This document shows positions 1 to 60,800 of a stretch of DNA of 64,000 nucleotides, one piece after another. The notes under the pieces were generated by a model, which saw nothing but the letters and a program-made list of their open reading frames with translations, searched no databases and was not told where the DNA came from. Each line of letters opens with the position of its first letter. Position 1 is the first letter of the stretch. A program made the translations under genes and the position numbers. This DNA is from Lineus longissimus (Eukaryota > Nemertea > Pilidiophora > Heteronemertea > Lineidae), in assembly GCF_910592395.1 (NCBI RefSeq), contig NC_088308.1, forward strand, positions 7,145,001 to 7,209,000, in the 5' to 3' direction.

Positions 1-229
1 GTCTCCATAGCACAGAGTGGTCACAAACCTGTCAATGATATGGAAGCCTTGTCGCCTGGTAGTCCCTATCACCGAGGCCAGAGCATTAGCCCAGTGCATC
101 GTGGTAACCTCTCATCGCCAGAATCCTCACCTCTCAGCTCAGGAGCCAACTCGCCGAGAGAGTTCAGGGGTGGTATTCAGAAACCTGATAACAGACATAA
201 TGTTGCAGGACACCGATCTGCAAATAAAG
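1..229 (+). CDS. MAP2K6: Probable 5' exon of the MKK3/6 gene, Ser-Pro-rich N-terminal extension
   Basis: The frame is open from the window edge for 76 codons and ends at aaag|gtacca in phase 1. This is the phase the 1776 exon needs, and it places a Lys-Gly pair before RKKPPG just as vertebrate MKK6 has SKG before KKRNPG. The segment is rich in Ser, Pro, Gly and Arg and carries six Ser-Pro dipeptides, for example LSPGSPYH and [10 protein letters not shown]. Vertebrate MKK6 has only about six residues here, so this would be a long extension. The nearest Met is at 40. Membership in this gene is inferred from phase and context; it could be one of several alternative first exons. Confidence 0.55.
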
Positions 230-3200
230 GTACCAAATAATAATGGAATTTTATGATATTTTTTCACTGGTATTGGTCGATTAATGAGTTATGTAGGTCA
301 TGTTGCCAACCAATCGAGCAACCTGCCAAAGTAAAGTTGGTTGTCTTTCTTCACAAACCAGGAGTCCTCGGGGGGGGGGGGGGGGGGTGGAATATCTTCT
401 CAAAGAAAGAAGTTGCCTGCCCTAAAATTTGGTCTCCAGCAACTAAAACCTCACCTTATCTAACCACTGCTTACATCTAACTTTTTTTGGCATGATAGTC
501 CATGATTTTCGTGTTTACATGTACTGTAGAATGAACTGTTGTGCCACATCTCAGAGTAGATATCCGCCACACACCAATACTTCTACACTGACCCTACTTA
601 GGACACAAATTAGACACACATCTCTTCTCTCACATAAAATCCCTCGTTGTAGCCCTATACCGGTGTGCGAATCCTCATCTTTGATTATGCCATAGAGCAC
701 GATCCCATTTGAATTGGATGTTGTGCATTTGGTGGTCTCAACTCACCATGTTCTGGCCAGATTGTTTTTTAGACGGGGTGCTCACCGGAGAATTTTTCGA
801 ATTCGAGGCTCAGATTTTTCGAATTGTTTGCATAAAAATTGTGTCATTTTTGTGCAAAAAGGCTTGGGTAACACAGTACACATTGTATGTAGTTTTATAC
901 ATGTATTTCGATGGTTTCTATTAAGGGTGTTTACATGCAGATTGTGCTCCTTTGCAAGTCCCAGATCAAGCTCACAGTGTTAGAAATGAAAAACAAGGAG
1001 GCACCTCAACGCCCTGGCATGCCTAGGAAACAGATGGTAGCGCCCCCTTTTTAGAAACTTTCTGGTGAAAACACTGTCTCTAAACAGTCAAAACTGTGAA
1101 TAGTTCCTGTCAGGCAGGTTTTGTGCTCATTACCATGTAACCTACTAATGAGGTCATATGGTCCCTGGGAGATCATAACTGATTTATGAATCGTATACAC
1201 AGTCTTTGTGCTGTTGAAGTCACACATTGAAAGTAGTTTATGCATGCCAATGCACACAATAACACAGTAGTGCAGTAGAACCTCTCTATCAAGGACACCC
1301 TTTGGACTGACAAGTGCTGCCCTTTGGTAATACTAATAGAGAGGTGTCCTAATTAGAGAGGTCAAACTGAATGGAGACAACAAATTAAGGAACAAAACTC
1401 GTGTCCTTTGGATAAGTTTCCTCTACGAGAGGTTCCACTGTGTCTAAAAAATTGTTTTGCAGGATAAGCTCAAGCTTATTGGGAACCACCAGTTTTCTCA
1501 CACCAACATTTTTGGTACTGTGACCCTATTTTGACACACTATAATTCATTTCTGTTTTGAGCAGTGTGGCACCGACATCGGTCTGGGTGCTTTCACAGAA
1601 CTATTAATAACTCCATAAGTATGTCTGGGTGCTAAAATGGAAAAAAAATTTTTTTTCCAAGTGCTGCACGTGCACAAAAGCATTCGATAGTTTTTTTGCA
1701 TGTGTCAAGAGCACTTGAGAAAACGTTATCACTTTTCAATGATCGTTTATGTTTTTCTCCTTCCTTGTCTTCCAGGGCGCAAAAAGCCTCCGGGAATGGG
1801 GTTGAAGATCAACGTGACTTCAACGCCCCCTCCAAAAGCTGGGTAAGTCCACATCCTTTGAATTTCTTCTATGCGAAGCCAGTGGCAGTGCCGAGGCTAG
1901 TGACGTATTCCTACTCGACCTATCTGATACACTCTCTATCCATAGCAAAAGAGAGACATCCTCCAACAACCTGGAAAAAAATACTCAATTCTTTAAAATA
2001 GAACTCAAAAGCAAAAAGAAACTTCAAAGTCTCTCCAAATAAAAACTGAAAGATGTCTGATCACATAGTAGATGACACTGTGGGGGTGTTCTACATTGTA
2101 TTCCTTTTCAGATTATCAAAACAATGAACTTCCGTTTCAGGCCCCCGAGAGAGCTCGATGACAGAGTTACCATAACCGTTGACGACAAAGTCTATGACGT
2201 CAAGGCGACTGACTTGGAGCGCCTGGGTGAACTGGGCCGAGGAGCGTATGGCGTTGTTGAGAAGAGAAAGCACACGCCAAGTGGGCTTATCATGGCAGTG
2301 AAGGTAAATACTTGATCCTTTTGTCTTCTTGTTTTGTACATTTGGTTAGCTTTAGATTGGTCAACAATTGAGAGATTGCTGTTTTTCTGATGATAATACA
2401 GTAGAACCTCTCTACTAAGGACACCCTCGGGACTGACAAGTGTTGTCCTTAATAGAGAGGTGTCCTGATTAGAGAGGTCAAATTGAATGGAAAGAACCAA
2501 TTTGGGACCAAAACTAGTGTCCTTAATAGAGAGGTTGTCCTTAATAGAGAGGTGTCCGCTAAGGGAGGTTCTACTGTAGTAATAATAATGATAAAAATGA
2601 TAGTGTGTTCTTATATAGTAATCTTCACTCTGTTATCTAATGTCTCAGTCAAAGTGCTTTAAAATCGAAACATCACCCAGCCTATCCAAAAACATTTCTG
2701 GGGAACCAAGGGCAGCCACAATCGAGCGCACACAAGGATACTTCAGGCCAGTTGCGAGTTACAAAGTGGCACTGGTCGGATATCAAACCCAGGACCTCCT
2801 GATCACAGGGCCGACGCTCAAACGTTGTGCCACCCGTCATCAACTGTCACTTTCAATTCCAGCGGATTCATTGCACTGTGAACTCAGAGGAACAGAAGAG
2901 ACTGCTGATGGATCTTGATGTCTCGATGCGGAGTGGAAACTGTGTGTACATGGTCAAATTCTATGGGGCCTTATTCCGAGAGGTAAGATGTGCTGTCTTT
3001 TCATATTTTTTAGGTCAAGTGAGTACAGATACAAAATTGATGAGTGCACACCAAACCTTCCCTTCTCATAGCAAAGGGTTGGTTGTATATTTTGATTTCT
3101 AAAAAAATAGCTCTTTGTGTAAATTTAGCAAAGTGTTGGTTGTATATTTTGATTTCTAAAAAAATAGCTCTTTGTATAAATTTAAAATCAATCTTGGCAG

Positions 3201-6200
3201 ATTAATCTTTGTTAATATCTAGAAGATGTGTTTCTATCATGCCATGACCTATAATCTGGACAGCTTTGCCTTGTAAGCGCTGCATTGTCACCAGATAAGG
3301 ATGTTGATTTTCTCAGAGAATCATGTTTCTCATAACTGCCACAGTGATTCTTCCGATGTTAATCATCAGAATAGCTCAGTTTGATTGGTTTGTGGATAAC
3401 TTCCTTGTTTGCTAATTTATGTGATTTCTGGCAACTGTTTGGGAAAATTGAATCTGAACACTGCAGGTCGCTGGCTCTGCAACTGTAAATAATAAAATAT
3501 GCTAAATGCATCTGTATGTGTACTTCATATGATATTGTTCATGCAAAGGGGAGAAATCTAACCCCCCTACCCTCACCCCAACCCCCTGTAAAAATGTTGA
3601 GCTGGCTCTAAAGTCACTGTCCTTGTGGCCCATAAATATACTTTTCTCCATCATTTAATTCAGAGCCAAAGGATCTCAAATTGTTCTAGTTTTGTCAATC
3701 ACTGCTTTCAGGGAGACGTGTGGATCTGCATGGAAGTCATGGATACCTCTTTAGACAAATTCTATACGGAAGTTTACCCGAATAGCTCTATACCTGAGCC
3801 AATCTTAGCAAAGATAGCAACTTCAGTAAGTTTATTTCATCCTTGACCTTTGGTTTATCATTGAGAAGTTGTGGTTTCTGCTTCTTCCTCTTCCAAGTTC
3901 AAATTGTTTTGGATATGCAAGCTACCAGTAGTTTATTACAATTTATAGAATGGTTGTGTACATTTTCTGATGCGTCCTAGAATTGTCGACTATAAAAGGA
4001 ATGCTGTAAATTTATGAGTGCTGTGCTGCAGTAGCATTATGTCAATAATTTAATCTTTATCGTCTGCCTAGGATGTGGAAAAATATTCGAATTTACATTG
4101 TTATGTTACTAACCTCTTTTTTTATGTTGCCTACAGGTAGTAAAAGGTTTAGATTACCTCTGCAATAACGGCATCATGCATCGAGATGTTAAACCCTCCA
4201 ATATTTTAATGAACCGTCAGGGCGATGTCAAATTGTGTGATTTTGGTGTCAGCAAGAAAATCATGGACTCAATGGCAAAAACTCGGAATGCTGGAACTGA
4301 GCCTTATCTTGCTGTGAGTAGATAGTGACTAATAATTGCTCCGCGTGTTCTTCTCTTAAAGGTAGTGAAGGCATTAGATTACCTCCATAGCAAGTTAAAA
4401 GTGATACATCGCGACGTGAAGCCTTCGAACATCCTGATCAATCGAGGTGGAGATGTCAAAATTTGTGATTTTGGGATCAGCGGTCAGCTGGTTGATTCCA
4501 TAGCGAAGACCATGGAGGCAGGCTGCAAGCCCTATATGGCAGTAAGTTTGTTTACGAGGTTGTAAGTGTGACGGCTTCTGCTCTGTGGTGTTGTTATTTT
4601 TTTGGTTAAAGTCTATTCCAGTTGCATTTCAGGGTAAAGTTAGCCCTTCCATTCTATTTACAATGTGTAAATAGAACAGTGGAAGGGGCTATTTTTCCCC
4701 CATTTTACCTCACTTGGCACAGAGTGTATCCTTTTTAGGTGTTTGCCTTTTTTTCCTTTCCTACCAGCATGCTTCCCTTGGAGCAGAGTAGGTCCACCCT
4801 TTGAGTGTCCGGTCCTCGGGCTAAAATACTGAACTAGCCTGTACTAGCCTATTCCTACGTTGACTGACTTCCTTTGAAACTGTCCTAGCTTTGGAATGCT
4901 GTTTTATTTTCAAATTTTGATAGATAATTAACAGCTTGACTGTTCAAAAAAGCAATTCTTTATTCATTGTGTCAGTAGCCAACACTATTAAAGGGGTTCC
5001 GACAACGAGAGCCACGCCAGAGAGGTCACTGGCCTGTGGCGGGTGCTAGTGTCTCCCTCTCTGGCTCTTGAATGCCACTTTGACTTCTGTGTTTACAATG
5101 GCTCATGTTTTCAAGTTATAGCCTCTGTGTTTAGTTATCATTGGAGTCATGTTTTTGTTTTGTTTTCTGTATTAGTGCTTGTGTTGATATCTATACTAGA
5201 TGTAGTATTATTGACTGCTGGTAACATGGTTTAAGTAATCAACATGATTTAAATTGTGTTTGTGGCCGAATTGTGGCACCTTTATGATATTCAACATTTT
5301 CAACTTCTTCATGCAGTGGTTGCAAATTTGTGCAAAGTGTAGAGCAAAGAGGTTTTTTTGAATGAGAGGTTTAATACAATGTATATATGTATTTTGTATC
5401 TTTAAACTTACAAATGTTTAATTTACCTTATAATTACAATGGTCCAGGGCCAAAGCCAATGGATTATTGGCCGTGGAGTTCATGAAATGTCACTACCTAG
5501 TGCCATGACCAATTACCGGGAACCACTCAGCCAAGGCTTTCTCTTTTGTGCCGATAAACTATAGTAATCTTTACTTTTCTCTGTGTTTTCCAAAAAAAGC
5601 AAGGAACGTCTAATTGTCTTTTTTTCCATTCCAGCCCGAAAGGATAAACCCAGACACGTCAAGTAAAGGCTATGATATAAAGTCAGATGTTTGGAGCTTT
5701 GGTATCACCCTGGTAGGTGTAGGCCTTGGGCAAAATCCAAAAAGGTTTAGGCTTAGTTTATGAATTCGTGACTACATTTTGGGGGCAGAGTAAAAATACT
5801 CTTATCAAGATAAGCAAGGTAAAAATAGTTGCTCCTAAACCAGATATATAGACCTTCGTAACCAGAAAATTATTTTAACTGGTCTAAACTGATAGAAATT
5901 TGTACCTTTATACATACTACATGGATGCCCCACTCTAAAACTTATTGATAGTGGACATACACTACAGGCGGATTTGTAGTTTGCTTTTCATTTCGGTTGC
6001 GCCAAAGTAGCTCCATTGGCCAATCAGTCAATCAATCCCCTCGTGTCTTGTTCTTTGCTCACTCTCATGCATTTTTTCCAATTCCAGTTTGAGCTAGCCA
6101 CAGGTCAGTTCCCGTACACTTCCTGGAAGACTCCATTTGAGCAGCTCAAACAAGTAGTCCACGACGACCCACCAAGATTACCACCGGGAAAATTTTCCGA

Positions 6201-8105
6201 GGATTTTGAAATGTTCATGGAAAGCTGGTGAGTTAGAGTCCTGGCCGATCATGATTGTGACCAGAGATATTAGCCGCAGCTGATGAAAATGTCTGAACAT
6301 TGTGTAAATAGTCTAAAAGCATAGACAAAGGGGACACTCACGTCATCAAGCCCCCCCCCCCCCGAACCTCCACTAACCTTGACCTTCTAATGTCGGGCAA
6401 CACCTTGTTCACACTCTCAGAAAGTCAATTTGTGCATAATTAGTTACAGATAATGCGCTGATTTGTAATACTTTCCTCATATAGATGAATAAGGGAGCTG
6501 TAACAGTAGAATAGGCTGCCGCATAGCATACTCTTAATAAGAACAGTGCAGTATTGTCACAATTGAGGGGTTATCTCGACTGTCCTACCATCCCATTAAA
6601 AAAAGCCCACACCCTGAACCCAAATCGATATATTAGTCAAATACTGAACCCAAATCGATATATTAGTCAAATACTGTACAGCTGTATCAAGCTAAATGTT
6701 TAGCAATCTTCAATACATGATTTTTCTTCAATCGCTTTTACGAAGATGACCATGAAACTATAGCATGTGTTCCGGCTGTTATGCTAATATCTCTGTCGCA
6801 ATTATGCTAGGCTTGTGGGGCTTTAGCTTAGCGTCCTCCCTTCCTGTGCATGTGTGTGAATAAGTGCTTGGTATTGTCTGGATCTAGATACTTGTCAAAC
6901 GTCATCTGCTGCTCAAATGGAGATTTTCAGGAAGAGTTGGGAGTTGTACCAGGTAGCAGTTTCCCTCTCTTCAGATGAGTGCACCTAGTGGGTCGAGTGT
7001 CCGAACTTGGCCAGGTGGAAGTTACCTTTTGTTGAAAATGATGTCACATCACAGTGTTGGGAGAATGACATCATTTTCATCAGAGCCTGGCTTCAGAACT
7101 AGGTGACATTTTGCCACTTGACTACTCGGTGCACTGATCTGGAAAGAGACGACTTCTGTTCAGCCTACTGTGGACTTGGCTAGTGTTGAAGGTCCTCTCA
7201 GAGGGTCACGTTATGCACAGTTGATGAAATTGCTAACGTCTGCTTACCTATGGCATGGAAGAGTAAGACATGGATGTCATCCAAAGTTGCATTTTCATTC
7301 AATGTTGAGTAAAGTGACATCCGGGAAGGATCTCTAGCCAAGCCTGTAGAAGAATTGAACAATCATGAATTTGATAATCATTATTTATCTTCATGATACT
7401 CGTTATGAATGCCGTCGGTTGTTTTTCTCTCGCCACCAGATGGAAATAGCTACGGGTAAATTCCCTTACTCGAACTGGAAATCTATATTTGAGCATATCA
7501 GGGAGGTAGTGGAAGGCACACCACCTCGACTACCAGACGAAGGCTTTTCGCCGGAGTTTAGAGAATTTGTAGAATGCTGGTAAGCTTTCAAGTATGCAAA
7601 CCTGGAAAGTTGCGCGAGGATCGAGTTCCTTTTGTTGTAGTAATGTCCCTCTCCACCAGACGGCACCACTAGTAGTATCCATCTCTTCAGCACTGTCTTT
7701 TTGTTGTTGCTGTCGCTGCAGTTTTGCACCTCCTTAATCAGGACACCTCTCTATTAAGGAAAGTACTTGTCAGTCCCTTGGATGTCCTTAATAGTTCTGC
7801 TTTATATGTAAGGTATGAAACGACATCGAAAACTATTTTTTGAAGGACGTTGACAGAACTATACTTGGCTGACTAGTTACTTGATTTGTGCCCAGAAAAG
7901 GCCCATGCTTGATTTGAAATTCATGTTTTCCTTTATTTTCAGCCTTCAAAAGAACTGTGCCGATAGGAAGAATTACAAGGAGTTGCTGAGTATGCCCTTC
8001 ATCATAAAGGCCGAAGAACGTGACGCAGAGGTCGACCTGGCTGCTTACGTCCAATCAGTATTAGGGGACAATTTTAACAATACGGCAGACATCCAAAGGG
8101 CCTGA
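1..8105 (+). CDS. MAP2K6: MKK3/MKK6-type dual-specificity MAP kinase kinase (5' end outside window)
   Basis: This kinase should phosphorylate the TxY loop of p38 MAP kinases in the cytoplasm. Exons: <1-229, 1776-1842, 2141-2303, 2863-2982, 3712-3825, then 4137-4313 (5a) or 4362-4541 (5b), 5635-5712, then 6088-6227 (7a) or 7440-7579 (7b), and 7943-8105. All junctions are GT-AG with matching phases. Counted from the window edge (417 residues with 5b and 7a) I see a basic p38-docking motif [12 protein letters not shown] at about 77-88, the glycine loop [10 protein letters not shown], the lysine of IMAVK near 153, HRDVKPSN near 247, DFG near 267, activation-loop S/T in VDSIAKT, the APE motif built across exons 5/6, and a C-terminal MAP3K-docking-like helix ending VLGD. 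The 40-residue exon 2863-2982 is nearly identical to vertebrate MKK6. A second MKK branch such as MKK4 or MKK7 fits less well. Confidence 0.95.
230..1775 (+). other. Probable MKK3/6 intron
   Basis: I see no convincing coding exon here. It contains a poly(G) tract at about 370-386, a foldback element at 1273-1440, and AT-rich filler. An alternative short first exon or promoter could lie here but nothing decisive is visible. Confidence 0.4.
1273..1440. mobile_element. Foldback element, CAGTAGAACC family (copy 1)
   Basis: It begins cagtagaacctctctat and ends with the inverse form gagaggttccactg. The middle carries the family words 'ggactgacaagtg' and 'gagaggtcaaactgaatgg' shared with the 2399 copy. 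There is no transposase. Confidence 0.75.
2399..2576. mobile_element. Foldback element, CAGTAGAACC family (best full copy), in an MKK3/6 intron
   Basis: The left end is cagtagaacctctctacta and the right end is its inverse, gaggttctactg. A TA dinucleotide flanks both sides, as expected for Tc1/mariner or pogo-type insertion. It has no coding capacity, so it is a MITE. Several inner 'ccttaatagagaggt' words make it a strong potential hairpin. Confidence 0.82.
2762..2836 (-). repeat. Probable tRNA-derived SINE head
   Basis: Read on the minus strand it has an A-box-like start (tggcacaacgtttgagcg) and about 45 bases later a degenerate B box (gggtttgatatcc), with a tRNA-like anticodon-arm region between. 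It is too degenerate for a working tRNA. It sits just upstream of the acceptor of the MKK3/6 exon at 2863. Confidence 0.4.
3069..3185. repeat. 57-bp direct duplication
   Basis: Two nearly identical copies, starting at 3069 and 3126, each read tagcaaag-g/t-gttggttgta and end in an 'aatagctctttgt' segment. It lies in an MKK3/6 intron. Confidence 0.85.
4137..4313 (+). CDS. MAP2K6: MKK3/6 alternative exon 5a (catalytic loop plus activation loop, divergent copy)
   Basis: This 177-nt phase-0 exon encodes 59 residues starting VVKGLDYL. It keeps [12 protein letters not shown] and the activation-loop serine and threonine (MDSMAKT), so it should make an active, phosphorylatable kinase. It differs from the standard MKK3/6 sequence: ISG after DFG becomes VSK, and GCKPYMA becomes GTEPYLA. 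A strong pyrimidine tract and ctacag acceptor precede it and gtgagt follows. By my alignment 38 of 59 residues match exon 5b, with no stop or frameshift, which argues against a decayed copy. Confidence 0.88.
4362..4541 (+). CDS. MAP2K6: MKK3/6 alternative exon 5b (catalytic loop plus activation loop, standard copy)
   Basis: This 180-nt phase-0 exon encodes 60 residues starting [14 protein letters not shown]. It holds [15 protein letters not shown] and VDSIAKT followed by GCKPYMA, very close to vertebrate MKK6. It lies only 48 nt after the end of exon 5a. Both copies start with GTA and end in an alanine codon before GT, so either joins exons 3712-3825 and 5635-5712 in frame. Confidence 0.93.
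4633..4716. repeat. Imperfect inverted repeat (hairpin) just downstream of MKK3/6 exon 5b
   Basis: The left arm (ggtaaagttagcccttcc then attctatttac) pairs with the right arm (gtaaatagaacagtggaagg then ggctatttt and a second ggtaaa complement). It could be a foldback transposon remnant or an RNA stem near the alternative exon pair. Confidence 0.6.
6088..6227 (+). CDS. MAP2K6: MKK3/6 alternative exon 7a (alpha-F/alpha-G region, standard copy)
   Basis: This 140-nt exon enters in phase 0 and leaves in phase 2. It encodes [19 protein letters not shown], then LKQVV and a [13 protein letters not shown] stretch, matching the FPYxSWxTPFxQLKQVV region of vertebrate MKK3/6. The acceptor is ttccaattccag and the donor gtgagt. 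It covers the end of helix F and the helix G region of the kinase C-lobe. Confidence 0.92.
6614..6673. repeat. Tandem duplication of a 30-bp unit
   Basis: The unit begins ctgaacccaaatcgatat and is repeated twice head to tail without change, within the intron between exons 7a and 7b. Confidence 0.85.
7440..7579 (+). CDS. MAP2K6: MKK3/6 alternative exon 7b (alpha-F/alpha-G region, divergent copy)
   Basis: This exon has the same length (140 nt) and the same phases as 7a and lies 1.2 kb downstream, between ctcgccaccag and gtaagc. It encodes [19 protein letters not shown], then IREVV and [13 protein letters not shown]. About 23 of 46 residues match 7a. Changes cluster in the helix G region ([10 protein letters not shown] becomes [10 protein letters not shown]). 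There is no stop or frameshift, so it looks like a maintained alternative exon. Confidence 0.88.
7729..7800. mobile_element. Fragment of the CAGTAGAACC foldback family
   Basis: It contains ccttaatcaggacacctctc, the family word cttgtcagtccc, and a truncated end near tccttaatagttctgc. Both termini are damaged. Confidence 0.55.
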
Positions 8106-14875: not shown

Positions 14876-17545
14876 TCCCTACTGTGGGAAAGGTTGAGAC
14901 AGTCACCACCACACGGAAGCGACCTTGCATCTCCTTCGTCTTGCCTAAACAGCGAGGGAGTTGTGACGGTCATAGCCTTAGGGAATAGGACCTGGCTGCT
15001 CCACTGTCTAGCCCATTTGGCGAGAGAGTTGAGACAGTCACCACCATACGGAAGTGACCTTGCATCCTTGTGTCTTGCCTAAACAGCGAGGGAGATGTGA
15101 CGGTCACAGCCTTAGGGAATAGGACGTGGCTGCTCCACTGTCTAGCCCATTCGGCGAGAGAGTTGAGACAGTCACCACCATACGGAAGCGACCTTGCATC
15201 CTTGCGTCTTGCCTAAACAGCGAGGGAGATGTGACTGTCACAGCCTTAGGGAATAGGACCTGGCTGCTCCACTGTCTAGCCATTCGGCGAGAGAGCTGAG
15301 ACCGTCACCACCATACGGAAGCGACCTTGCATCCTTGCGTCTTGCCGAAACAGCGAGGGAGCTGTGACGTCACAGCCTTAGGGAATAGAACCTGGCTGCT
15401 CCACTGTCTAGCCATTCGGCGAGAGAGTTGAGACAGTCACCACCATACCGAAGAGACCTTGCATCCTTGCGCCCAGCCTAAACAGCGAGAGAGTTGTGAC
15501 GGTCACAGCAATAGGGAATACGACCTGGCTGCTCCACTGTCTAGCCATTCGGCGAGAGAGTTGAGACAGTCACCACCATACGGAAGCGACCTTGCATCCT
15601 TGCGCCCAGCCTAAACAGCGAGAGAGTTGTGACGGTCACAGCAATAGGGAATAGAACCTGGCTGCTCCACTGTCTAGCCATTCGGCGAGAGAGTTGAGAC
15701 AGTCACCACCATACGGAAGCGACCTTGCATCCTTGCGCCCAGCCTAAACAGCGAGAGAGTTGTGACGGTCACAGCAATAGGGAATAGAACCTGGCTGCTC
15801 CACTGTCTAGCCCTTTCGGCGAGAGAGTTGAGACAGTCACCACCATACGGAAGCGACCTTGTATCTCCTTCGTCTTGCCTTAACAGTGAGGGAGTTGTGA
15901 CGGTCACAGCCATAGGGAATTGGACGTGGCTGCTCCACTGTCTGGCCCATTCGGCGAGAGAGTTGAGACAGTCACCACCATACCGAAGAGACCTTGCATC
16001 CTTGCGCCCAGCCTAAACAGCGAGAGAGTTGTGACGGTCACAGCAATAGGGAATACGACCTGGCTGCTCCACTGTCTAGCCATTCGGCGAGAGAGTTGAG
16101 ACAGTCACCACCATACGGAAGCGACCTTGCATCCTTGCGCCCAGCCTAAACAGCGAGAGAGTTGTGACGGTCACAGCAATAGGGAATAGAACCTGGCTGC
16201 TCCACTGTCTAGCCCTTTCGGCGAGAGAGTTGAGACAGTCACCACCATACGGAAGCGACCTTGTATCTCCTTCGTCTTGCCTTAACAGTGAGGGAGTTGT
16301 GACGGTCACAGCCATAGGGAATTGGACGTGGCTGCTCCACTGTCTGGCCCATTCGGCGAGAGAGTTGAGACAGTCACCACCATACGGAAGCGACCGTGCA
16401 TCCTTGCGTCTTGCCTAAACAGCGAGCGAGTTGTGACGGTCACAGCCTTAGGGAATAGGACCTGGCTTCTCCACTGTCTAGCCCATTCGGCGAGCAAGTT
16501 GAGACAGTCACCACCATACGGAAGCGACCTTGCATTCTTGCGTCTTGCCTAAACAGCGAGAGAGTTGTGACGGTCACAGCCATGGGGAATAGGACCTGGC
16601 TGCTCCACTGTCTAGCCCATTCGGCGAGAGAGTTGAGACAGTCACCACCATACGGAAGCGACCTTGCGTCCTTGCGTCTTGCCTAAACAGCGAGGGATTT
16701 GTGACGGTCAAAGCCATGGGGAATAGGACCTGGCTGCTCCACTGTCTAGCCCATTCGGCGAGAGAGTTGAGACAGTCACCACCATACGGAAGCGACCTTG
16801 CATCTCCTTCGTCTTGCCTTAACAGCGAGAGAGTTGTGACGGTCACAGCCTTAGGGAATAGGACCTGGCTGCTCCACTGTCCAGCCCATTCGGCGAGAGA
16901 GTTGAGACAATCACCACCATACGGAAGCGACCTTGCATCCTTGCGTCTTGCCTATTAGACAGCGAGGGAGTTGTGACGGTCACAGCCTTAGGGAATAGGA
17001 CCTGGCTGCTCCACCCATTCGGTGAAAGAGTTGAGACAGTCACCACCATACGGAAGCGACCTTGCATCCTTGCGTCTTGCCTATTAGACAGCGAGGGAGT
17101 TGTGACGGTCACAGCCTCAGGGAATTGGACCTGGCTACTCCACTGTCTAGCACATTCGGCGAGAGAGTTGAGACCGTCACCACCATACGGAAGCGACCTT
17201 GCATCCTTGCGTCTTGCCTATTAGACAGCGAGGGAGTTGTGACGGTCACAGCCTTAGGGAATTGGACCTGGCTACTCCACTGTCTAGCACATTCGGCGAG
17301 AGAGTTGAGACCGTCACCACCATACGGAAGCGACCTTGCATCCTTGCGTCTTGCCTATTAGACAGCGAGGGAGTTGTGACGGTCACAGCCTTAGGGAATT
17401 GGACCTGGCTACTCCACTGTCTAGCACATTCGGCGAGAGAGTTGAGACCGTCACCACCATACGGAAGCGACCTTGCATCCTTGCGTCTTGCCTAAACAGC
17501 GAGGGAGTTGTGACGATCACAGCCATAGGGCTGCTCCACTGTCTT
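14876..17545. repeat. Satellite array: 133-137-bp monomers, about 20 copies
   Basis: Monomers contain two related halves, one reading gagagttgagacagtcacca and one gagttgtgacggtcacagc, so the monomer is itself a diverged dimer of a unit of about 67 bp. Monomer length is 133 at 15481-15750, about 134-135 in the middle, and exactly 137 at 17062, 17199 and 17336. A higher-order repeat of 402 bp (three monomers) is visible: 15674-15913 recurs unchanged in translation at 16076-16315. Open frames cross the array on both strands because of the repeat, not because it codes. Confidence 0.95.
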
Positions 17546-18061
17546 TCCCATTCGGCGAGAGATTTGAGACAGTCACAACCACACAGAATCGGAGCTGGTT
17601 GCTCACCGTCGGAGAAGAGTGGGAGATTTAGTTGGGCCAGGGAAAGGACAGTCACAATCAGACCGAATAGGACCTGGCTGCTCCACTGAATCCCCCATAC
17701 GGTGAGAGTTGAGAGAGCCACAACCAGACCGTATCGAGCACACAGTGATAGAGATGAAATAATCAAAACAAGACTACCTATTCGGTTCCACCATGTTGCA
17801 TACACGATGAGAGAGATGTGACAGTCCATACTAGCTCTCCATGTTAGAAAAACGGTGGAGATGCCAGGCCCCATTCCGTCTGGTTTTGACTGCATCTGGC
17901 CTATCCCAGTCGGCCTTGTTGTGGCTGGCTCATCCTCCCGTCCTGTTAAAATTGGGTGCAGTAGTTCAACCGTGTTGCTAACATAAGGAGACCAATAGGA
18001 CAGTCACAAGCAGACCAGATAGTACCTGACTACCACACTGTCCCGCCCATACGGGACAATG
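17546..18061. repeat. Degenerate right flank of the satellite array
   Basis: Old, diverged subunits are still recognisable ('gagagatttgagacagtcac', 'ggacagtcacaatcagac', 'gaataggacctggctgctcc'). The pattern of young core and old edges fits growth by unequal exchange. Confidence 0.65.
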
Positions 18062-32000: not shown

Positions 32001-35000
32001 CATTTCACAGAAAAGGACCACATATTGAAAAGCGAATTTACACCATTGACCCACATATCGGGCTTTGTTGTTGGCAAAACAATGGCAATAACAAAGACAT
32101 TATCAAAACGTGGTACAGTTTATTGGCAACGTCACAGGGTCAAGGCCAAGTATCAATGTCCAAAATGGATGTCCAGAAGACAGATGACGTCACTGCATGG
32201 CATCTATATGACAAAATATTTATAATCCCGAGTGCCTATTTTTAAAACAACCTCAAGTTAATCATTCTGAGGAAATCAGGGGTTAAAGTTCACTTCTACG
32301 GCCCTGCACGGGGCAAACATTAACCCCCGATTTCCTCAGGATGCAAGTTACATGTAATAAAACTTGAAACTTGAACTAACCTTCAACACTCTTCCTGGGC
32401 CTGAATTCAATTCTCTTGCTAACGAACTCATATTTATCTCTAGTTGTTGTCACTCTCTTCCTCAGCTCCAGAACTTCCCGCACTTGGTCTTGGTGCCCAC
32501 CAAATTTTGTCAGAATCTGAGAAAAAAACAGTACCGGTTTATATTTATGACAAAGTCTAACAGTACTCGATTTGATACTCTAGTCGATGATTGTGAATGA
32601 ATATCAAAGACCTGATAAATATGCTGTAATAAAGCTTTGAAAGCAGTGGCTTTTCAATTCCGAGGCAAACACACTATATGTATCTGATACCAACAACACT
32701 GTCCACCTACATACCTCGAGCCACCTGCTGACCATGGGCCCAAACTTTGTATCAATCAACCTCTGAGCATCAACAAGATTCTGGATGATATCTGTATTGT
32801 TATCATCCTCAATAATCTCTGGCGTCACATCAATGTTGAGATTATAACGCCACGTCCCGAATCCATGCTCTCGAATAAATGCTGAACCAGTTTTACTGAT
32901 CATACTGGCAATATCGGAAACTTCTTCAAAGTCATCGTAATCACTATCATCAGAAGTACAGGATGTTCCAGAGTCCGACTTCACCGCTTCATTTCCACCT
33001 GAAAATGTGTCCATATTAATTTCCGCTTCTGTTAAGCCAACTAGTCTAGAATTTTTTCCACCACTTTTCGAAGACTTTGCAATTGGAAATGGGAGCTTGA
33101 ATTTGTCAAAAATGTCTATATTGCCAACTTGGTTGTCAGCACTACCTTGATGTGATTTGGACACTTTGCCGTCAGAATTGTCGTTTTGTGATTCGGAATC
33201 GACGCTCTGATTTTTCTCCTTCCGCGACTTTTTCCCCGTTGTATCCGCATCAATGTCTGGCCCTCTTTTACCCAGAAAAGAACTATGCGTCTTTTCACAA
33301 GTATCTGGATTCTTCCGAGTAGGACTGTGGCCTTCATTCTGTCCTAGCGTTTCATTTTTTGAATTGCAATCGTCACATTTTGCTAGCAACTCAGGAACAT
33401 GTTCACCAACTCCAGCACTAGTAGAATCTTTATCAGGTTCTTTGTCATGATTATCACCAACGCCCGAGCATGTTGGAGTGAGATCATTTGTGTCAGTATT
33501 CTCATCACACGGCATCACAGATGCAGAAGAAACCACAGGCTCCCAACGAGGTACTTCATTTGCACTAGAATAAATTTTGTCCCAGTCGATCTCGAAATCA
33601 GGATTTGGCAAAATGAGGTCAATCCCACTTTCCAACTGTGTTACACAAGCAAGAATCTCAGTACAGTTTTCTGGAGAAAAAAGAAGAATAGAATGATGAA
33701 AAAATGTATTTTCAATAAAAATTAAAATATGATGTCTGTTTATTTTCTTTCAAGTTAGTTCAGGGAACATCAGTGCCACCAGTTGATAAAGACAAATTTG
33801 GTATCCGCACTAACGCTGTCAAAATACAGCATCTCATATGCTTTGATTACAATAGATACAGGCATAAGACTAAGAGATACAGACACAAGAGCTACAAGAG
33901 ATACATGTACACAACAAACATACCATCCATTTCTTTGCGTAAAGTGTCCAACTTTTTCGTCATAAATTCGCAGCGTCTCCGATCTCTTTCTTCAGCTACT
34001 CGTCTCTCCATCACATTTTGAGCACTAGCATCATTAAATTCAACCTGGAAGTGTTTAGATGGATATCTTTGTTTACAAAGTGACGTCTTTCATTTCTAAT
34101 AACATCCAGTGACCAAATTTATCTGCAAACTTTCTCCAAAAGGGCAGATATAACAAGAAACATAGAGTAAAAAACTGACACAGTATTTTAATAGGATTCA
34201 GTTGCATTCATCACACAGTTAAATTAATTGTTTTACCTTCTTAAAATTCTTCAAAAAGTTGTATCCCAGTGCTAACTTCTTGTAGGCATGTCCAAAATCT
34301 ATGTACCATTTTTGAACAGCTTGGATGGCCAAACGATTCAGATTCTTTGCGGCATGCTTTGGAGGTGGAAGGGGACAATCAAAATCAATCTCTGCAAAAA
34401 GAACATGAACAATTTGTTTTTATTCATGTTAATCTTTTTAAGTGATGGTCGCACTCCTTTCTTGTAATCTACTGAATTTGCCTCCTTCCTATCAGCGTTG
34501 CAGTAGGACTCCCGACGTCATGTCAGCAATATCCGAGACTGACCTCAAGTCATAAGTTGGCCGTTTTATTTCCACATAATAGAAAGCCACCACTAGTGGA
34601 GCTGATCTGGAAGAGGCAAATTCAAGACTGAAATATAAGTAGGTGACAGGCATTTACATTCTGATTGTTCTCCTCCATGCTAAGATATTGCAGTTAAAAC
34701 CAATTCAAGGCTTTTGCCCGATATGTTGTCTAATTGCAACTTCTTAAATTTGCTCTGATAATTACCGGCTGTTAGCTCTAAGAAGTTATGGAAATCCGAG
34801 AGAATGAGTTCTCTAAACTGATGTGATCTCACAAATATCTCATTGGCAATCTGGAAGGCAGAAAAACGGATCTCGGCATGTTCTTTTTCCAGTTGAGACA
34901 TAACCAAGTGATGTAGATGTTTAACATATCCATCAGAAACCCTGAAAAGTGAAAATAGCAGAAGATGAATTTGATTTTTACAATTTTCGGAATTTTTCGT

Positions 35001-35381
35001 ACTGTCCAAACAAAACAGTATTAACTAGAAACAAAGCCAGTTTCTTTAAAAACAGTCTTACCTGTAACTAAAAACAAAGCTAATTCTTCAATTCTAGATT
35101 CTTGCATGACTTTTGTCATCTGGTTTATAGCCTCCTTGGAATATCGACAACTAAAATCGGCCATCAAAACAACTAACCACTAATCAAAGTTTTTACACTG
35201 TAGTCTGGAAATCAAGAGAAGTTAGCCCAATCCAATATAACATGTCGTACTTGCAGATCTTTTTCAAGCTTTTCATGATGCCTTCATCTAGAGTCTGACT
35301 GCCAGATGTTGTCAATTCCTCCACATATTTCGCCATCTCCTGGCACAAACCATGGTCAAGCGCTGCCTCTTCTTCAGACAT
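29028..35381 (-). CDS. UVSSA: UV-stimulated scaffold protein A (transcription-coupled repair)
   Basis: In human cells UVSSA joins stalled RNA polymerase II through CSA and brings in TFIIH. Exons in transcript order: 35381-35251, 34941-34766, 34391-34237, 34044-33924, 33670-32715, 32516-32381, 31843-31660, 31421-31275, 31010-30950, 30426-30304, 29993-29894, 29590-29380, 29127-29028; 2601 nt, 866 residues (human 709). The N-terminal VHS-like helical domain has EEHAEIR-type core [18 protein letters not shown] followed by RSHQFRELI. The CSA-binding region is [13 protein letters not shown] at about 211-223. The C-terminal zinc-finger segment has [19 protein letters not shown] then PFH at about 714-738. 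The end, [13 protein letters not shown], matches the conserved C-terminus. Extra length lies mainly in the acidic, Ser-rich exon 33670-32715. Confidence 0.96.
30078..30252. mobile_element. CAGTAGAACC-family foldback element in a UVSSA intron
   Basis: A degenerate left end (gcagatacctctgtaagcaa) pairs with the right end gttatagagaggttctaatg. Inner words 'tttcattcaatttgacct' and 'agtcccaagtgtgtcc' are shared with other copies. Confidence 0.65.
30440..30690. repeat. 33-bp minisatellite, about eight copies, in a UVSSA intron
   Basis: The word gatctatggcaacacatgta recurs at 30551, 30584, 30617 and 30651, and more diverged units start at 30456 and 30489. It begins within about 15 nt of the acceptor of the exon ending at 30426. 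Confidence 0.92.
32267..32339. repeat. Short perfect-stem hairpin in a UVSSA intron
   Basis: ctgaggaaatcaggggttaa and its near-perfect inverse ttaacccccgatttcctcag are separated by about 33 bases. It may be a small MITE. Confidence 0.75.
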
Positions 35382-57800: not shown

Positions 57801-60800
57801 TAACTCTGACTACAATTTCGATATTTTCTCCTTCTACTTTCAGACTACATATAATAACATGCCTACATTTGTGAGAAGTTGTTTTGTCATGTTCCTGATT
57901 TATTTAGTCTTTATCCAAGATAACTGGCACTGGTAACCCCATCCACTTTTGGCTGCTTTGAGGGCAGAGACCAGAATCTCTGGACAACCTTTTCCCTTTC
58001 ATCAAACCACTGATTTGTTCTGACCGGTTTGCAACATTATGTACAAACAAGTTGGGGAGGCCAGAGGGGGAAAGTTCTTGAAAGCCAATTGCAAAAAATG
58101 TCCAAGGAGATTAAGACAAAGAGAAGAGCCTGAGCTCAGCAAAGCAAATATAGGATATTGTCTGGGAACTCGATGAATTCAGACAGGCAGAAAGAACTGA
58201 TATTGGCAAAATGTCATCATCATGCTGGTTACCTTTGGTATGTTTGAAGTCCAAGTTGGAGAGAAAGCAGCCAATGTGGTGGAGTGAGTAGACAAAGTGG
58301 TGAAGAGAGCAGCCCGAGCCAAAGTGGTGGAGAGAGCAGCCCAAGTGGCGAAAAGCACCAAAGAAGTGTAGAGTAGACAAGGTGGCGACGAGAGCAGCCA
58401 AAGTAGTGGAGAGAGCAGCCAAAATGGTGAAGAGACCAGCATGAGCCAAAGTGGTGGAGAGAGCAGTCTGACTCTTGAGCCAAAGTGGTGAAGAGAGCAG
58501 CCCAAGTGGTGAAAAGCACCAAAGAAGTGGAGAGTAGACAAGGTGGCGATGAGAGCAGCCAAAGTAGTGGAGAGAGCAGCCAAAATGGTGAAGAGATCAG
58601 CATGAGCCACAGTGGTGGAGAGAGCAGTCTGACTCTTGAGCCAAAGTGGTGAAGAGAGGGGGTTCAAGGAGAGACTACTTTGTCTTTTTACGGCTAATCC
58701 CTTCAAACTATTTCGATATGCACCATTGCTCAGCTGCCGATGCAGTGCCCTTTAAAACAACTGCATGCCTGTTATTAGTGATAAAAGGGTTGATTTTAAA
58801 AAGTGCATTCTGAGACATTCTGCAACATGATAATAGACACTAGACAGTCTGCAATATCAATCACGATCAAGCGACAGCAAATATTTCACTGAACAAGATT
58901 ACTGGAGATCAATCGATGTATTCCATGGCTAGGAATCCTGAGAAAAATCAATAATGCACTCTCTCAGACACACTCTCCAACAAACATGTACCATACACCT
59001 GTTCAACATAGCCCGGACGTTTGTTCACAGAAAATGTTCAAAATTTGACTGTTGGCCAACTGGATGATCAAGGTCTGATCGATATCTATTTATTTGCACC
59101 CAACCCTCTTCTTTGAAAACACACATGTCAGCCTAGAAAGGCTGAAATTGATGCGCTTATTTATAAACTGAATCTGACTTTGACATCCCGATTAGAGCTT
59201 CAGCTTTTAATATGCATGCGCTTATGCTTGACAGGACTGATACAGGATCTTCTTCATGAATGACACTGTGGCTATTAAGTCATTGAGTTAAGGTGGTGCA
59301 TTAGCTGAAACTCGGATGACACTGAGTCTGATCCTGACAAGCCAATCAGTGATGTCAGATGAAGTGCTGTGACAGTCTTCGATATTTGCCGGAAAAGAAA
59401 TCTGGATTCGAGACAAAAGTGGCGGCATAACAAAATCTTTTGTGACACTAAATCGATAGAGAAGAGTGATGTCATTGCATGACAAGCAGGGTGGGAGATC
59501 AAGGAGCTGACTACCCCACATAAAAGCAGTTCAGCAGATCAGATGAAAGCATATTGGTTCCTTATGGAATAGGGGACGAGGCTGTTGGTAGCGGCTACCA
59601 GATAGCAATGCACGTATCAGGATAGCAGGAGAAACCATGTGCAAAGCTGGGGGGCACCTAATTCAGTTTCCCCGTAACCCGACCTAGCAGCACTGGTGAT
59701 ACTGCTGTGATGTCATTGCTTGCTATATGTGTTCGCATTTGTCGAAATGGTGGCCAATGCGCACACCCTCGCCTCCTTTTGACTGAGACTAGAACCAACA
59801 TGGGAAGATAATCCATACTTACGTGAATTTTACTGAGTTTCTTCTGGATTTTCTCCGCCACCTTTTCTGCCCAGTATTTCTCGCGAAGGAAGTCCCAAAA
59901 TATTCTCGATATCAACGCATTCACAGAAATCAGCTGAGGTTCGCACACTATGAAACCGCACCGCGCCCCTTCCTTGCGTATCAAACTTGACGACTTGGCC
60001 ACTTTCAAGATGGCGTCTGCTGGCATGACGCGAGCAAGGAAACGGATGTAATCCGTCTGCATCTTTTCATCTGGGTCAATCATTTCTTTGAGTTCTTTCA
60101 TCCCAGGCTCAGCTGTGCTCACGGATGAATCACTGCTCTGTCGGCGGTGTTTCTGAAACTCGGCCGACGCGCTCCGCGTCAGCTTGGACGATTCGGCCAG
60201 GTAGTTGATCAGCGGTTTACCGCGCGACGCCGCCTCAAACCGCCGGTACCACTCCTCCTTCTCCCGCGTAGTCCGGGCAAATAAATAAAGCACCACTTCG
60301 TTGCACGATTCTTTTGATACAATCTCGAAATCCTTCTCAGCATCCTCGTCAAACGATTCAGATGGCGACACAGATTCATGCGTCTTGGAAGGTGAGTGTC
60401 GAGAGTCTACCTTAACATTACTTTTTCCGTTGTTACCAGATTTGAGATAAATGCACACAGGGTATTTTTTACTCCACAAACGCTTTTTCACTAATTCTGG
60501 TGGAAGAAGGACGATTTTACTCCCAGTTACGTCATAATATCGTTGGTGGATGAATTTTGGACTCGGTAGCGGTTCATCCCACATGCCCCGCTTTGGGATG
60601 CTGGTCTTCGGTCGCTGTAACCGTAATGTCGTCCCCTCCAGGCTGACGTATATGGAATGAGTTTTGTTGATGTGGTAATCCTCTGGGTCATACTCGGCAG
60701 CCTCATTCATCCAACCCTGCAAGCAGACGATAATATCATCCTTATTGTTTGTTCGCCAGAAAACCTTTGATGGGTTTTAAAAACCTTGCTCAGTTTGAAA

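Follow-up and report, generated by a model that had tools for sequence, protein, structure and literature searches.

Two pairs of apparently mutually exclusive tandem exons in an MKK3/6-type MAP kinase kinase gene

A gene on the + strand of the 64,000-nt stretch of DNA analysed here (the window) was read as an MKK3/6-type MAP kinase kinase (MAP2K) in which tandem exons form two mutually exclusive pairs, independent of each other, with four possible full-length kinases; a probability of about 0.82 was assigned to this reading. The choice between exons a and b would exchange the catalytic loop and the activation segment, the part that MAP3Ks phosphorylate, and the choice between exons c and d would exchange the region around the alphaG helix, the MAPK docking part; one gene would then yield four full-length kinases (a/b × c/d). 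Exons a and d are expected to be used in RNA, and the forms that carry them would presumably be active as kinases, with an altered input or substrate preference.

Gene structure and identity

The gene was rebuilt from splice sites and reading frame, and most of its length was located in the leftmost 8.1 kb of the window. The MKK3/6 N-terminal coding exon (1..229, +) starts left of the window, and its frame and junction agree with P0003, a database protein of 453 aa encoded by the window locus. It is followed on the same strand by exons e1 (1776..1842, with AG/GT, frame and P0003 in agreement), e2 (2141..2303, with the glycine-rich loop GRGAYG and the IMAVK lysine), e3 (2863..2982) and e4 (3712..3825). 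Constitutive exon e6 (5635..5712, +), which begins with PERINP and is present as a single copy in the window, separates the two alternative pairs, and the last coding exon, e8 (7943..8105, +), contains the stop codon. The intron between a and b has 48 nt; every other intron, including those of the alternative routes, measures between 298 and 1727 nt. All four exon combinations are open and end at one common stop, and when the exon peptides were compared with the window by tblastn, strong matches were obtained only within the a/b and c/d pairs.

The protein assembled with exons b and c gave its best PDB matches with 3vn9 (E 7.7e-134) and 8a8m (E 8.9e-130), both MKK6; in the ranking, four MKK6 rows came first and were followed by MKK4, and MKK7 also stood below MKK6. 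Assignment of the gene to the MKK3/6 type is supported by these best matches. P0003 corresponds exactly to the b-c form with 36 extra N-terminal residues and was the only protein from this locus among the database matches listed, where no annotated isoform with exon a or d was found. In a tree of the constant part, the gene was tentatively placed (support values not given) beside P0093, adjoining a group rich in molluscs, and the DNA would accordingly come from a spiralian.

Other features of the window were recorded during the same analysis. Similar dispersed repeats around 'tctctatta...ggacacc', recognized by eye at about 1270-1440, 2400-2580 and 7730-7800, look like a small family of mobile elements, and the region 15674-17690, where near-identical open frames recur on either strand, apparently consists of long tandem repeats. 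An open frame on the - strand at 34680-35024 matched Pfam UVSSA_N, the UVSSA N-terminal domain (E 9e-22). Another open frame of 372 aa on the - strand (59658-60776), without a Pfam match, is presumably TEX2-like, as judged by eye.

Exons a and b

In exon a (4137..4313, +, 59 codons) both the catalytic loop and the activation segment are divergent, and exon b (4362..4541, +, 60 codons), which is present in P0003, encodes them in canonical form. As claimed in the original prediction, the two are in-frame phase-0 exons of these positions and lengths, and both encode the 12-residue motif and the S.AKT sites named there; HRD, DFG and S.AKT (paired S/T, SxAKT) are kept in a and b alike. The identity, put at about 64%, was computed as 38 of 60 aligned columns (38/59 without the gap). 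A tblastn search of the window with exon a returned exon b at E 1e-22 and the next row at E 4.9, so the likeness of the two is far beyond chance. The description of both exons as intact with good splice sites held in part: AG/GT was present at every junction (3825, 4137, 4313, 4362, 4541 and 5635) and no stops were found, but the donors of a and b are weak. With a simple matrix of human-type frequencies, the 5' splice sites of a and b scored 1.7 and 2.0, those of e4 and the first exon (1..229) 1.5 and -0.6, and those of e1, e2, e3, e6, c and d 4.1-6.5, above a and b.

The residues of the two exons were compared with 134 reference MAP2Ks, defined as proteins from two protein searches with at least 200 aa, a loop-motif match and no repeated loop. 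Exon a has residues absent from 134/134 references at four columns (C9, K41, I43 and M44), whereas each changed residue of exon b occurs in at least four of the 134. Exon a is also one residue shorter before HRD, and has GT where most references have GC (C in 111/134, T in 19/134). The cysteine lost from exon a (AGC.PYM) was considered as the redox-sensitive cysteine of MKK6 and rejected, because the latter is the Cys just before DFG, according to the part of PMC7076255 consulted, and is kept in both a and b.

Third positions of the pair are saturated (42 of 59 differ), and most amino acids have been retained (pS 0.89, pN 0.23). Neutral evolution of a from b was simulated in 500 runs, in which a copy received as many third-position changes under the assumption of equal base changes and no indels. 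The simulated copies kept a mean identity of 9% and a maximum of 24%, compared with 64% observed, and 6% of the runs remained stop-free, as the real exon a is; at about half the divergence, the mean and maximum were 28% and 56%. Judged by these simulations, neutral decay cannot explain exon a. The use of a and b as alternatives, as originally predicted, is supported as the best-fitting reading of the sequence, because boundaries and phase match, the exon combinations are open, the 48-nt intron would hinder joint splicing, and constraint acts at the protein level. The prediction was incomplete, in that the c/d pair, the antisense element and the 48-nt intron were overlooked.

Exons c and d

The second tandem pair consists of exon c (6088..6227, +), which is present in P0003, and exon d (7440..7579, +), each of 140 nt. 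They encode peptides identical at 23 of 46 residues and were joined by tblastn at E 2.6e-14. The pair probably covers the alphaG region, in a canonical form in c and a divergent form in d. An aligned F is kept in both exons, and the ten-residue segments in which it lies differ at its flanks: the Pro before F is found in 50/134 references, the Ile of d in 5/134 and the His of d in 0/134. The canonical exon c also has one residue found in 0/134 references, so that the presence of rare residues does not by itself set a and d apart. According to the part of a preprint consulted (PMC12871702), the phenylalanine-led alphaG helix of MEK1 docks the MAPK insert in the MEK1-ERK2 complex, and alphaG binding in MKK6-p38alpha is very similar. 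The F of c and d would correspond to the phenylalanine that leads alphaG in MEK1.

Synonymous and nonsynonymous divergence between c and d amounted to dS 1.28 and dN 0.43. In 500 neutral runs from c under the same assumptions, identity to the original averaged 25% with a maximum of 52%, compared with 50% observed, and 19% of the runs were stop-free; at about half the divergence, the mean rose to 50% and the maximum to 85%. Neutral decay thus appears to explain d only poorly, and the simulations do not by themselves establish constraint on it. Since the outcome at half divergence was milder, the case for d rests mainly on its frame, length and splice sites.

Conservation and origin of the alternative exons

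The original prediction had proposed an orthologue search for both exons, and at the protein level this search returned no counterpart of exon a: the marks of an a-type loop, DFG[VI]SK or GT.PY, were found in 0 of 236 relatives among the matches listed (proteins besides P0003, from the best 120 of 1004 in a wider search and the best 120 of 563 in a search with exon a). Seven of the 236 lack the closing PE, and their loops are ordinary MKK5 or MKK7-like. This absence is weak evidence, because a database clustered at 90% identity may hide a one-exon variant behind the canonical form. A protein query with exon d by itself yielded a single candidate and no scored match. A scan of genome contigs with exon a yielded 25 loci, with bacterial or MAG titles, and a scan of viral contigs gave no relative. 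One of the genomic loci (L001, on a contig titled Crocinitomicaceae MAG) is 64% identical over 44 exon a residues, which is high for a bacterial kinase and may represent contamination.

A view of a and d as leftovers of duplicated exons, rarely or never used, with b-c as the only working kinase, was judged improbable. The b and c exons of P0003, the residues found in 0/134 references at four columns of a and one of d, the low donor score of a and the missing a-like loop among the listed relatives would all be consistent with such relics. Against them stand open frames, matching phases, intact splice sites and the lack of stops, together with an identity of a far above neutral expectation; moreover, the donor of b is about as weak as that of a.

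The origin of the copies was examined with trees, in which family labels were assigned by our own motif rules. For exon a (60 columns), FastTree gave a grouping with MEK1/2 and MKK5 at a support of 0.955; the grouping of d with MKK4 was loose (0.68). On these grounds, exon a could derive from the gene of a different MAP2K, MEK1/2 or MKK5, and d conceivably from that of MKK4, and not from tandem duplication, in which case a would still be an alternative exon; VVKGL, CDFGVS, GT and a shorter loop before HRD are common to a, MEK1/2 and MKK5. In topology tests with 37 sequences each, a position of a inside MKK3/6 was excluded by bp-RELL (0.018) and c-ELW (0.020) but not by p-AU (0.096), which rejected none of six trees; sisterhood of a and b (p-AU 0.18) and of c and d (0.16) was likewise not rejected. 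An origin from another gene is quite unlikely, given also that a and b have in common a 29-nt stretch over the acceptor that is 83% identical, that the activation segment of a is the longer AKTxxAG of the stress-kinase group and not AKTYVG, and that the copies adjoin one another. Tandem duplication followed by divergence is favoured because of this acceptor stretch, the longer segment of a and the side-by-side position.

Common exon boundaries were dropped as proof of tandem duplication, since MKK5/MKK7-like fragments in the database break at identical places, before VVKG (P0215) and after YMA (P0143, P0174 and P0135). This suggests that the boundaries at VVKG and YMA are old and common to several MAP2K families, and they do not decide the origin of the exons.

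Probable mutual exclusivity

Both pairs have the sequence features by which WebScipio recognizes mutually exclusive exons (in the part of PMC3228551 consulted). Lengths are similar within each pair (177/180 nt and 140/140 nt), splice sites are AG/GT with equal phases, and neighbouring exons are homologous (38/60 and 23/46 residues). Of 16,180 exons on the X chromosome of the fly that were not annotated as exclusive, just 90 had these features, according to the same part of PMC3228551.

The a-b intron (4314..4361, +) is 48 nt long, and its retention runs into in-frame stops. CTAAT, the sole match in it to eight branch-site words, would place the branch-point A at base 19 of the intron and 29 nt short of the acceptor, so that the putative branch point lies less than about 50 nt from the upstream donor, as indeed does the whole intron. 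Some lineages of animals do splice short introns. The steric limit of about 50 nt comes from OGDH and human studies and may not be the minimum of this species. In the OGDH work, as far as PMC7969005 was consulted, the threshold between donor and branch point was near 50 nt; OGDH exons 4a/4b, which show steric exclusion, have branch points closer than about 50 nt to the upstream donor, as is predicted for a and b here, whereas the intron there is 118-131 nt in birds and mammals. A human survey with a criterion of <50 bp, as given in the part of PMC5740500 consulted, counted 57 such clusters (9%).

The reading frame is kept if a and b are both included or both skipped, and a steric block therefore matters for this pair. 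In contrast to this, a TGA arises where c is joined to d, and a transcript with neither of them is shifted in frame and runs into an early stop. Double inclusion would accordingly be blocked in two different ways, sterically for a-b, where the intron would be below the length needed for splicing, and by the junction stop codon for c-d. Mutual exclusivity looks built in for both pairs, because of the 48-nt a-b intron, the stop at the c-d junction and the frame shift when c and d are both skipped.

An antisense element between exons c and d

An element in the c-d intron (6908..6964, +) is antisense to both exons of the second pair. Its bases 6908-6937 are complementary to exon c at 6116-6145 (26/30), and bases 6910-6964 align antisense to exon d at 7442-7495. 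The local antisense scores of 40 (c) and 36 (d) exceeded the maxima of 500 dinucleotide shuffles of the intron (27 and 30) and of 60 shuffles of the whole window (33 and 29), none of which reached the observed values. One element is thus complementary to two competing partners beyond chance (0/500 intron shuffles and 0/60 window shuffles for both c and d). Exon b was without a comparable antisense partner (score 24), and five other exons scored 24-31. A weaker stretch in intron 1 (484..519, +), of uncertain significance, is antisense to part of exon a at 4247-4281 (score 36, 14 exact bases, 0/60 whole-window shuffles).

When 598 overlapping 60-nt windows of intron sequence were compared as duplex partners, the windows over the element ranked first for c and also for d, and the predicted duplex energies were -67 and -60 kcal/mol for the element with exon c or d RNA. 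In a predicted fold of 6080-7590, the element pairs with c; when the c arm is blocked it pairs with d, and when the d arm is blocked it stays on c. Predicted folds of 6080-6980 (z -4.8) and 6890-7590 (z -9.0), segments picked after the repeats were seen, were each more stable than 20/20 shuffles. Of 32 evenly spaced 600-nt windows, the three mostly over the c-d intron had z values of -1.7, -2.9 and -3.3, and two others in the gene reached -3.5 and -4.0. The antisense match of the element to c and d is solid; the fold statistics give no special evidence, because the segments were chosen afterwards and other windows of the gene reach such values.

The element may be a pairing switch, an editing complement or an inverted exon relic. 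About an even chance was given to the last of these, a degenerate exon copy in inverted orientation that serves no function. The minus strand at 6962-6909 reads exon-like, with 9/18 residues matching c and one stop (tblastn, E 0.16), and the c-d intron also contains further repeats, some inverted and some direct. Inside the paired part, c and d differ at third positions no less (9/19) than outside it (13/27), which counts against a selected switch, and the fold values of the other 600-nt gene windows agree with a relic as well. A copy of a single exon does not simply predict, however, that the element agrees more closely with c in one half (26/31, d 22) and with d in the other (20/26, c 8).

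Use of the element as an editing complementary sequence, with which c or d RNA would pair and undergo A-to-I editing, so that the locus would (also) be an editing target, is rather improbable. Site-selective editing duplexes often join an exon and the adjacent intron, as stated in the part of PMC5654063 consulted, and the predicted duplex energies fit such a role; the resemblance of the element to an inverted exon copy speaks against it.

Pairing of this kind is known from docking-selector systems (Dscam, 14-3-3zeta, Mhc and MRP1), in which, according to the part of PMC6071210 consulted, one element is likewise complementary to two competing sites, although the docking site there lies in an intron up- or downstream of the cluster and the selectors lie beside the exons. 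In the present gene, exons c and d are themselves the partners, and the element predicted to pair with them lies between them. A fuller scheme can be put forward as a tentative and rather unlikely proposal: a 2 × 2 splice-coded kinase with a/b as input module and c/d as output module, in which the c/d choice would be set by an intronic element derived from an inverted exon copy that pairs with either exon, masking the one it binds and leaving the second accessible.

Relation to known systems and significance

JNK exons 6a and 6b are mutually exclusive and are located in the kinase C-lobe. Like the exons described here, those of JNK (MAPK8/9) are alternative exons in a kinase of the MAP kinase cascade and change substrate binding, but they act one cascade level further down, and one pair per gene is given in the table of PMC8699841, a review consulted in part. 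The part of it consulted also covers MAP2K splice forms (MEK1b, MKK3b, MKK6b and the MKK7 forms); these are alternative splicing of MAP2Ks too, but the forms lack internal or N-terminal parts or have sequence added at the N- or C-terminus, with no swapped catalytic-domain exon among them. FYN has tandem kinase exons that are mutually exclusive and differ in tissue use, whereas these span the SH2-kinase linker together with the N-terminal part of the kinase domain, where the ATP site lies, and not the activation segment or alphaG (PMC9741552, in the part consulted). In the open-licence PMC literature, no title among the matches listed described the swapping of a catalytic or docking exon in a MAP2K. 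Tandem exclusive exons are thus already known, kinases included, and two such pairs in one MAP2K are probably a new variant.

Through a MAP2K, signals from many MAP3Ks reach a small number of MAPKs. Separate exchange of activation segment and docking helix by splicing, if it takes place in this animal, could shift wiring specificity from one tissue to another with no need for additional genes. These natural pairs of exons would provide matched swaps for testing the residues behind MAP3K input and MAPK output, and the c-d element would allow a direct test of whether exon sequence can itself be the selector in exclusive splicing.
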